From: an uncultured Clostridia bacterium
GTDB lineage: Bacteria > Bacillota > Clostridia > Oscillospirales > Ruminococcaceae
Reading direction: 5' to 3'
Assembly: GCA_945935925.1 (NCBI GenBank)
Contig: CAMERU010000004.1
Span: forward strand, 1 to 35,279
DNA length: 35,279 bases
The translations under genes were made by a program, and so were the position numbers. Shown here one piece after another: positions 10,680 to 12,204 of the stretch (position 1 is the stretch's first letter; every line of letters begins with the position of its first letter). The notes beneath the pieces are model-generated. The model was not told the DNA's origin, searched no databases, and saw only the letters and a list, made by a program, of their open reading frames with translations.

Positions 10680-10876
10680 AAAAAAACAGAGGCTCCGAAG
10701 AGCCTCTGTCAGGGGGAAACCCCCGTTTTGTTCAAAGCACCGCCTTGCCGTAGGATGCAATATAAAACCCGCTTTAGGCAGGGTGGGTAAGATCGCCCGG
10801 CGTTTTCACGCTCCCTATCATCCGCAGGGCGGGAGGTCTGCAATCCGCCGCCGGAGCCGAAATCCCTTTTTCAATG
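10680..10876 (-). ncRNA. Structured small RNA, candidate 6S RNA
   Basis: A non-coding minus-strand unit of about 197 nt begins downstream of a TATAAT at 10883-10888 (no clear -35). It ends in a strong terminator: a 10-bp stem ACAGAGGCTC/GAGCCTCTGT with a UUCG loop and seven T residues (10680-10709). The interior folds into a long rod. Minus-strand CCGCCCTGC (10824-10832) pairs with GCAAGGCGG (10740-10748), extended by GGATG (10819-10823) with CATCC (10753-10757). A GCGT-GAAA-ACGC hairpin lies near the apex and a GGGGG/CCCCC hairpin near the 3' end. Length and rod-with-internal-loops shape fit 6S RNA. It lacks the GGAAGGAAGC-type loop of SRP RNA and is too short for RNase P RNA or tmRNA. Family assignment is tentative. 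Confidence 0.5.
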
Positions 10877-10882
10877 TGTTGG

Positions 10883-10888
10883 ATTATA
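10883..10888 (-). promoter_or_regulatory. -10 box of the candidate 6S RNA
   Basis: A perfect TATAAT on the minus strand stands 7 bp before the predicted 5' end of the small RNA. The 17-bp-spaced -35 position reads GGTAAT, which is weak. A palindrome ATTACCGC-TT-GCGGTAAT lies just upstream and may be an operator or the end hairpin of the DUF1292 transcript. Confidence 0.5.
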
Positions 10889-10995
10889 GTAGCACACATA
10901 AGCGCATTACCGCAAGCGGTAATTTACAAGGCAGTAAAGCTTCTGACGATAATATTATCCGCCGTCAAGCCTTAAATATTATCGGAAATTTCAGG

Positions 10996-11316
10996 TCAAA
11001 CCTCGTCAAGTCCCTCGATATCGAGCTCGGGAAGCTCAGAAAATCTCTGAAGGAACATCTCGCCGACCGTCTGATACTCGTCGTCGTCGTCAACGGTGGC
11101 AAGCATTTCCTCGCCGTCAATGACGGTTTCCTTGAGGACAACAAATTCAGACGCGCCCTCGTCCTCGTCATATTCCGCGGGAACAAGCGCGTAATAAGCC
11201 GTTCCGTTGTATTCAAGCCTGTCCACGAACTCAAAGCGGGTGACGTTGCCCTCTTCGTCCTCGAGTTCGATCACGCCCTCGTCCTCGTCAAGTGTGATAT
11301 CGTTATTTTCAGCCAT
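10996..11316 (-). CDS. DUF1292 family protein
   Basis: This 106-residue, strongly acidic protein matches the DUF1292 family, common in Firmicutes and of unknown function. It shows the family's order: an acidic N-terminus, then GxVxEFEFVDRLEYNGxAYYALVP, then EFVVLKE and an acidic C-terminus. No signal peptide or membrane segment is present, so it is cytoplasmic. The frame has a GTG 18 nt upstream, but AAAGGA is placed for the ATG at 11316. In Bacillus the family member yrzB sits beside alaS and ruvX homologues; that neighbourhood is absent here. Confidence 0.85.
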   Translation of the reverse strand: MAENNDITLDEDEGVIELEDEEGNVTRFEFVDRLEYNGTAYYALVPAEYDEDEGASEFVVLKETVIDGEEMLATVDDDDEYQTVGEMFLQRFSELPELDIEGLDEV

Positions 11317-11364
11317 ATTCGTGTTTCCTTTCACCGCGCGAATTACAGCCGCGCTTGTACTTAT

Positions 11365-11393
11365 ATTTTACACCATGAATGTTACGATGTCAA
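11365..11393 (-). promoter_or_regulatory. Promoter of the DUF1292 gene
   Basis: On the minus strand a perfect -35 TTGACA (11388-11393) and a -10 TAAAAT (11365-11370) are 17 bp apart, with a predicted start about 40 nt before the ATG. It faces away from the plus-strand RNA promoter at 11511. Confidence 0.85.
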
Positions 11394-11510
11394 GAGGAAT
11401 TTTATGAAAATACGGTGTAATACCGTGTTTTTAAGCAATTATCATTAGTTTCAACAAAAGGCGTTTCAAAATGTTATACAAACTGACAGCCGATTTTTAA
11501 GAAAAAACTA

Positions 11511-11539
11511 TTGACTTTGACGAATTTTTGTGGTAATAT
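11511..11539 (+). promoter_or_regulatory. Promoter of the large non-coding unit
   Basis: On the plus strand the -35 TTGACT (11511-11516) and -10 TAATAT (11534-11539) are separated by 17 bp. The predicted start is near 11546. No protein-coding gene follows before the terminator at 12089-12118. Confidence 0.8.
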
Positions 11540-11545
11540 ATAGAC

Positions 11546-12118
11546 AGGGAAAGAGAAACAGATACAGCCGATGATCACATAAGCGATCGTCACCTCAGCT
11601 TCTCCGACCGGAAATCGAAAGGAGATCATTCCGATGGGTAGATAAGTACCTGTCTCGGGCGTGTCAGTCCGATGACCTTCAACTCACAAATCAGGCTTTA
11701 TGCAGAAAGGAAGCGAGTCCAATGGAAAATATCGAAGAACAGTCGTACTCATCTGCGGAGTCGCATTCCGCCGACCGTCCGTAAAAAATTACCGACGATG
11801 ATTTGCATGGGTTCCTGTCTTACCCGAAAATGCAAAATCCGCTGAAACAGGGCGTTTGACCCGTTATCACGGACCAAGGCAAGCCGCAGATGAATTCTTT
11901 ACCGCTTATGCGTTTACATAGATCGTCCCGACTATTCGAAATCAGGTGATTAAAAATGTACGCAGCAGTCAGCAGGAATGGAACAAATTTGCGAAAGGAT
12001 TGAGTCCGATGTCCCGTTAGAATTATCACAAATTCTATAAGGCGGTATAAACCAATGTACTGATAATTGTTAACAATTGAATAAATGAGTCCCCGTTTCG
12101 CGACGGGGACTTTTATTT
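11546..12118 (+). ncRNA. Large (~575 nt) structured non-coding RNA candidate
   Basis: This unit has a near-consensus promoter, a strong intrinsic terminator and no convincing protein between them. Base composition is clearly more AT-rich than the flanking genes. The motif GAAAGGA-N5/6-TCCRATG occurs three times (11617-11636, 11705-11724, 11993-12011), and CCGATG occurs in two further places. Folding signals include GATGATC/GATCGTC (11570-11576 with 11585-11591) and a possible long-range pair of the 5' AGACAGG (11542-11548; its first bases precede the predicted start) with CCTGTCT at 11649-11655; a second CCTGTCT lies at 11814-11820. The longest frames are a 57-codon basic ORF without a ribosome site and a 20-codon ORF at 11722. 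Size and setting resemble ROOL or OLE class RNAs, but no family signature was recognised. A decayed gene is the main alternative. Confidence 0.55.
12089..12118 (+). terminator. Terminator of the large non-coding unit
   Basis: GTCCCCGT (12089-12096) pairs perfectly with ACGGGGAC (12103-12110) around a 6-nt loop, followed by TTTTATTT on the plus strand. It faces the udp terminator, so the two convergent units are separately closed. Confidence 0.85.
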
Positions 12119-12139
12119 TGCAAAAGCGTTTTATTCCGA

Positions 12140-12180
12140 AAAATATTGCGAGGGGAAAATGTTCCGTTTTCCCCTCGCAA
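12140..12180 (-). terminator. Terminator of the glmU-udp operon
   Basis: A perfect 14-bp stem, TTGCGAGGGGAAAA with TTTTCCCCTCGCAA (12146-12159 and 12167-12180), has a 7-nt loop and is followed on the minus strand by TATTTTTC. It is the only clear terminator found downstream of the seven minus-strand genes 18969 to 12205. Confidence 0.9.
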
Positions 12181-12204
12181 TTCCATATTACGGTAAGCCG
12201 TAAA

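Follow-up and report, generated by a model that had tools for sequence, protein, structure and literature searches.

Positions 11511-12118 of the window, by which we mean the whole 35,279-nucleotide stretch of DNA that was analysed, form a conserved, partly structured RNA unit, predicted to run from promoter to terminator without an ordinary protein gene, and the repeats within it are, by their sequence, translation-initiation modules. An earlier note had proposed such a unit, and its relatives in the genus bear this out. As to function, we favour, with confidence that stays a little below even, an independent, partly structured RNA built from tandem minigenes, which would load and hold ribosomes, as a decoy or buffer; we infer its transcription, its occupancy by ribosomes and the decoy or buffer role. 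A wider statement, held tentatively and well below even confidence, is that a family-wide RNA of tandem start-stop minigenes with near-complete complements of the 16S tail may sequester or buffer ribosomes in trans, as a ribosome counterpart of 6S RNA.

On the plus strand, the unit is enclosed by a sigma-A-type promoter at 11511-11539 (TTGACT-17-TAATAT with a TG upstream of the -10, that is, an extended -10), which is conserved across the genus and the diverged relatives, and by an intrinsic terminator at 12087-12112, whose hairpin has an 11-pair stem and whose T-rich tail reaches about 12118. About 570 nt lie between them. The promoter position predicts an RNA start near 11546 (plus strand), and the conserved 5′ start at 11544-11555 (plus strand) reads ACAGGGAAAGAG in the window and TCAAGGAAAGAG in most relatives. 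The scan for these signals gave four promoter-like sites against 2.2 in shuffles and four terminator-like sites against 1.0, which is weak support taken alone; conservation decides. We accepted the unit as real because its promoter (TTGACTTT...TG.TATTAT), its 5′ start (TCAAGGAAAGAG) and its 3′ end (AATTGAATA with a GC-rich hairpin) recur across the genus, and both signals named in the earlier note are thereby confirmed. That note saw no protein in the unit, which holds for an ordinary one: the longest plus-strand open reading frame has 57 codons (11672-11845) and is present in the window's element only, and the longest on the minus strand has 69 (11820-12029, GTG start). What it overlooked is that the unit carries six start-codon modules with short frames. 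The repeated motifs that it reported are real, as copies of GAAAGGA...TCC(A/G)ATG, but their nature as ribosome-binding sites with start codons, many followed by near-immediate stops, had been missed.

Each module consists of a Shine-Dalgarno (SD) sequence that continues as a bulged complement to the 3′ tail of 16S rRNA (AAAGGAGGTGA-N-TCC), then R-ATG and often an in-frame stop within 1-4 codons. The genus form is GAAAGGA-N(4-6)-TCC(A/G)ATG and the family consensus is about AAAAGGTGA-(G/T)-TCC-A-ATG. All six copies in the window lie on the plus strand. Module 1 (11618-11645) reads AAAGGAGATCATTCCG-ATG GGT AGA TAA, a mini-ORF (MGR) that has 1-5 codons in the genus relatives keeping it. Module 2 (11657-11674; GGGCGTGTCAGTCCG-ATG) is degenerate, with a weak SD and no early stop; in many relatives it is a mini-ORF (MAR, MAC, MHL, MA) and in others it is lost, while in the window the stop and most of the SD are gone. 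The most conserved block is module 3 (11706-11784), in which AAAGGAAGCGAGTCCA-ATG opens a 20-codon frame, MENIEEQSYSSAESHSADRP, and module 4 (11945-12003) joins GGTGATTAAAA-ATG to a 15-codon frame, MYAAVSRNGTNLRKD. Module 5 (11994-12020; AAAGGATTGAGTCCG-ATG TCC CGT TAG) encodes the mini-ORF MSR, and module 6 (12042-12063; GCGGTATAAACCA-ATG TAC TGA) encodes MY, which in most genus relatives is a bare ATG-TAA. Mini-ORFs are found in the window at modules 1, 5 and 6 only, which counts against the best explanation. In whole genomes of the genus, matches to the GAAAGGA-type pattern cluster at the element, three of five in the window's own genome. Modules are spaced by at least 43 nt in the family and, apart from one overlapping pair at 7 nt, by at least 38 in the genus, with a maximum of seven in one locus. 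On the divergent side of DUF1292 genes, three loci (L184, L177 and L101) hold five to seven modules, in places at a near-regular spacing of ~90-130 nt and many with 1-4-codon ORFs; these arrays look like repeat expansion. At L043, on the minus strand and some 600-800 nt past the promoter, a module is present as three tandem copies of ~67 nt, with the frames MEGEYLPL, MESEYLPL and MEGEYLLL, which suggests a recent module amplification.

Apart from an additional base ahead of the TCC, the module is a predicted complement of the free 16S tail. TCC[A/G]ATG precedes none of 161 ordinary starts, and TGA at -8 to -6, a position left free by the search, occurs in 60 of 127 family modules and fits the complement of the 16S tail (GGATCACCTCCTTT). 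Predicted duplexes with the tail averaged -14.9 kcal/mol for 132 genus modules, -15.3 for 31 diverged ones and -14.4 for 59 modules from 31 family loci. Ordinary starts (183) averaged -10.3 and shuffled modules -6.3; the comparison is favoured by TCC being required in the module definition. The tail sequence used was typed in; of 61 genomes, two matched a pattern for the 16S 3′ end, each belonging to another family, and the window genome's own 16S end was not among the matches. Away from the element locus, an exact complement of the 16S tail, AAAGGAGGTGATCCAATG, stands before an ATG at G031:C185:2037-2054.

Behind many modules the frame closes at once, as MGR, MES, MAR, MHL, MY, MK, MA or bare ATG-TAA. 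We counted stops within four codons at loci with two or more modules, with expectations from dinucleotide shuffles. Over all modules, 64 of 123 closed in the family (22.8 expected; 40 loci from 40 other genera) and 72 of 132 in the genus (24.6 expected), where the loci are related and the counts not independent. When the first module of each locus was left out, the figures were 60 of 83 in the family (16.8 expected) and 48 of 102 in the genus (19.9), and for the last module of each locus 28 of 40 (9.7) and 30 of 30 (9.8), respectively. As controls in the same family loci, early closure was seen for 157 of 756 other ATGs, and for 39 of 130 when an SD-like word preceded the ATG. The most frequent mini-ORF length in the family is two codons (42 modules). 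Counting against the best explanation, frame +1 gave 42 early stops of 88 in the family set and frame +2 gave 8, the former being frequent partly because codon 2 often begins with A. Earlier counts had dropped, in each locus, the first module whose frame had at least 11 codons, an outcome-dependent omission that favours the minigene reading, and stood at 64 of 88 (family) and 72 of 102 (genus); a further count of 29 of 40 shares this omission. The arrangement that defines regulatory minigenes, an SD and an AUG with a stop within a few codons, is thus present in the family and the genus. The 13 diverged loci are at chance (5 of 28 against 4.5 expected), again a point against the best explanation.

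The unit used as a blastn query matched in 35 of 100 genomes, 34 of them among the genus's 43, the window's own included. Together with a second query, the element of another species, it places the element in 41 of the 43 genus genomes, only G036 and G037 lacking it; two 25-nt matches of the second query (G037 and G008) were left uncounted, G008 being counted from the first. A profile search recovered all 30 loci of the first blastn at E-values of 5.4e-32 or better, the profile having been built from 28 of them. A scan for the module-3 pattern in the contigs of the named species genomes picked out 46 stretches, with titles mostly of uncultured Clostridia, Oscillospiraceae, Ruminococcus and Ruminiclostridium: 26 genus-type elements, 16 diverged ones whose ends resemble the genus-type ends, and four (L032, L063, L065 and L067) set aside as chance. 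At L063, near 6174 on the minus strand, the pattern is followed by ATGGAATGA, a two-codon ORF, ahead of what by eye is a small heat-shock protein-like gene. A phage or plasmid origin was rejected, as there was no match in the distant blastn of phages and plasmids or in viral contigs scanned for the module-3 pattern.

Diverged relatives of the unit are spread through the family, and the usual neighbour is a divergently oriented DUF1292 gene, which in the window lies outside the RNA at 10996-11334 on the minus strand. Among 71 loci whose promoter could be located, a total in which some contigs are counted twice, 61 show this orientation. The ten exceptions are two loci without upstream sequence, seven entries that represent four loci of a single clade and their duplicates, and L054. 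The clade of L009, L010, L020 and L021 has kept the element, has no adjacent DUF1292 gene and starts ORF3 with GTG. Also outside the RNA, a match at 10733-10925 (minus strand; 22.5 bits against a gathering score of 46.4, over the full model length) is probably a diverged 6S RNA gene missed by Rfam. On the flank of DUF1292 that faces away from the element, 6S RNA occurs close by in 13 of 20 and 14 of 20 family loci. We dropped this linkage as a functional clue, for the pair is also found in other families (11 of 20 loci), where modules are rare; on this ground the proximity is probably ancestral gene order and no evidence for shared function. Only L001, L002 and L042, of which L042 is the same contig as L002, have the window's downstream gene next to the element; the gene is not conserved, and the unit is therefore not a leader.

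Taking DUF1292 as an anchor, we read its divergent side in 91 family genomes, each of a different genus (31 mainly best by E-value and 60 hand-picked from the same list), and in 29 genomes of other families. At least two modules occurred on the element's strand in 40 of the 91 family loci (on the opposite strand in 1) against 2 of 29 in other families (opposite strand 0). The remaining 51 family loci have fewer than two strict modules, which counts against the best explanation. All 30 genus loci and all 16 diverged ones carry a stricter module core, as do 44 of the 91 family loci and 1 of the 29 from other families; the diverged figure is partly by construction, because the scan pattern contains the core. 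L118 and L124/L125, from other families of the order, show one or two module-like sites divergent from DUF1292, in L118 a single AAGGTGAGTCCGATG with a promoter-like site. From such sites, the RNA may extend beyond the family.

We propose repeated ribosome engagement because the unit offers several start sites of exceptional predicted strength, many of which close at once, and no conserved gene follows. Each module would present to the 30S subunit an SD extended toward the start codon as a bulged complement of the 16S 3′ tail, with an AUG next to it and often a stop only 1-4 codons later. A ribosome would bind such a site firmly, initiate, terminate almost immediately and bind again, and a single RNA could in this way keep several ribosomes occupied while no useful protein is made; titration of ribosomes would need the RNA to be abundant. 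In the available portion of one source, ORFs of two codons behind a strong SD hold ribosomes, reinitiate and shield the RNA on which they lie (PMC8708949); the axe-txe minigenes described there act in cis, not in trans, and are not toxic, which counts against a decoy. In the part available of another, S. aureus ribosomes accommodate SD helices extended toward the start codon, a tolerance that its authors relate to the shorter bS21 of Firmicutes (PMC13009471); there the extended SDs aid ordinary initiation, again a point against a decoy.

The main rival, which we regard as unlikely yet serious, is that the ribosomes serve the RNA itself in cis, the mini-ORFs blocking nucleases or steering folding while the structured parts do another job. 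It draws on the unit's structure, which is part of the best explanation as well. The single-sequence fold energy is slightly unusual (MFE z-score -2.1; 4 of 100 shuffles equally good) and insufficient to settle the matter. The complementary segments announced in the earlier note exist as a perfect 10-bp arm pair on the plus strand, TCATCTGCGG at 11749-11758 and CCGCAGATGA at 11884-11893, which forms a long-range helix bridging a frame, and across relatives the arms change together (TCATCTGCGG, GAATTGCGG and GAATTGAG, each with its complement). Inside it, on the same strand, lie a covarying hairpin at 11802-11836, with arms TTTGCAT (11802-11808) and ATGCAAA (11830-11836), and a short hairpin at 11850-11862, GGG (11850-11852) with CCC (11860-11862), which shows compensatory changes in relatives. 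Over the 17 pairs of these three helices in the genus alignment, 94.2% of cells are paired. The earlier note had suggested a check for covarying pairs, and it was positive: 54 cells are changed on both sides, where shuffles give 20.7 and slid controls 3-14, for a structure derived from the same alignment on which it was tested. There is no excess of further pair types (18, with 17.7 in shuffles), and helix 1 has seven pairs of which six are invariant within the genus. Base-pair covariation, the mark of a structured noncoding RNA, is thus present. In addition, the motif TGCGGCTCG has near-exact partners 121-132 nt further on in the seven genus loci inspected and in 6 of 13 others (L031, L046, L055, L069, L074 and L193), the remaining seven having none or a chance-like 6-7-mer. 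Covarying helices and a helix that bridges a frame suit a role in cis, as do the published minigenes, which in the portion seen of their source stabilise their own mRNA (PMC8708949). Such a role would need neither near-complete complements of the 16S tail nor repeated modules, up to seven per locus.

Less probable still is a polycistronic mRNA for micropeptides, in which ORF3 and ORF4, and ORF5 in some clades, would yield short functional peptides. ORF3 begins with Met/Val-Glu and stops within 15-30 codons in all 46 tabulated elements, its second codon being partly fixed by the search pattern. Indels of 3 nt leave the frames open, each of the three stop codons is used to end them, and GTG can replace ATG as the start, for ORF3 in 5 of 46 rows and for ORF4 in L020 and L021 (a GTG start for L028 is a misplaced start). 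By eye, some peptides look similar between loci, for instance MKFTKFRVFFKIGPSE in L031 and MRIVFRIGPSE in L047. As point estimates, the pN/pS values of 0.67 (ORF3) and 0.59 (ORF4) lean the same way and that of ORF5, 1.61, the other. Against peptides, the one- to three-codon ORFs would be left without explanation, and TGCGGCTCG, 28-42 nt behind the ORF3 AUG, is read in three frames, C-G-S (L070 and L193), L-R-L (L031, L047 and L055) and A-A-R (L009, L020 and L196); it is therefore the RNA that is conserved there. We also looked for the conserved protein that would have spoken against a noncoding unit: the frames are kept, yet the amino-acid content of the module peptides appears weakly constrained. 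On these grounds a conserved protein is judged improbable for ORF3-ORF5; for the 57-codon frame it was rejected on its presence in the window's element only.

Quite improbable, in our judgement, is that the repeats are untranslated sites for a protein or another RNA, with the AUG-stop pattern secondary. UCC-R-AUG is far more constant than an ordinary ribosome-binding site, and partial GGA/UCC mini-hairpins could form in some copies; the ATG/GTG interchange, the position of the SD and the excess of in-frame stops indicate translation instead. We rejected such a mini-hairpin as the cause of the conserved TCC, which by eye it fits in some copies, while others (GGTACRGTCC) cannot form it, and preferred the 16S-tail complement because it fits more copies and explains TGA at -8 to -6. 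That complement, near-complete and bulged, would also suit an antisense RNA to the 16S 3′ end that pairs with the tail to serve the maturation of ribosomes or the quality control of 30S subunits. We consider this very improbable, since the AUG and the stop would be left without explanation. Large ornate RNAs of the ROOL, OLE or GOLLD type resemble the unit in being long, partly structured and without an ordinary protein gene, and the earlier note had thought the RNA either ROOL-like or new; the size and the missing protein gene notwithstanding, this assignment is hardly credible, as none of their covariance models matched in the window, in a permissive scan of the unit or in the loci of 15 relatives, and the anatomy here is one of repeated ribosome-binding modules. 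Specifically, no Rfam family reached its gathering score anywhere in the window, the element had no Rfam match in those 15 loci, and the permissive scan of 11350-12200 gave 13 low-scoring rows, none of them ROOL, OLE, GOLLD or raiA, the models named in the earlier note. The best permissive match by E-value, BSnc120 (12047-12131; 26.7 bits against a gathering score of 114), overlies the terminator and was rejected.

Regulatory mini-ORFs are a familiar device, the lambda bar minigenes being one example. Others are axe-txe mg2, the LEE1 and LEE4 leaders and B. subtilis ycbK (PMC8708949), which, in the portion of the source available, resemble the modules in having a strong SD, an AUG, one or a few codons and a stop. 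These known minigenes sit singly or as a pair in the leader sequence of a gene under regulation, whereas here there are up to seven per RNA, and the window's unit ends in a terminator of its own, with no conserved gene following. With the extended SDs of S. aureus the modules share an mRNA-16S pairing that continues past the SD toward the start codon; in the part seen of that paper the extension is about two extra pairs in ordinary mRNAs (PMC13009471), unlike the almost complete, bulged tail complement found here, repeated and mostly placed before mini-ORFs. Single minigenes and extended SDs are thus known. For a stand-alone conserved RNA of tandem start-stop minigenes we found no description in the open-access full text searched, most subscription journals lying outside it. 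If the proposal is right, intergenic transcripts held to be protein-free may be dense with selected start codons that are invisible to ORF finders using length cut-offs, and the unit makes one question testable at a single locus, namely whether selection builds RNAs whose "translation" is itself the function. By mimicking a template, 6S RNA occupies a central machine, RNA polymerase. The unit would be comparable in its manner of working only, as an analogy: its target would be the ribosome, and the two have no sequence relation. If the proposal is true, a dedicated bacterial RNA competes for ribosomes through repeated, hyper-complementary start sites that end at once, which would be a new way of setting translation capacity in gut anaerobes.
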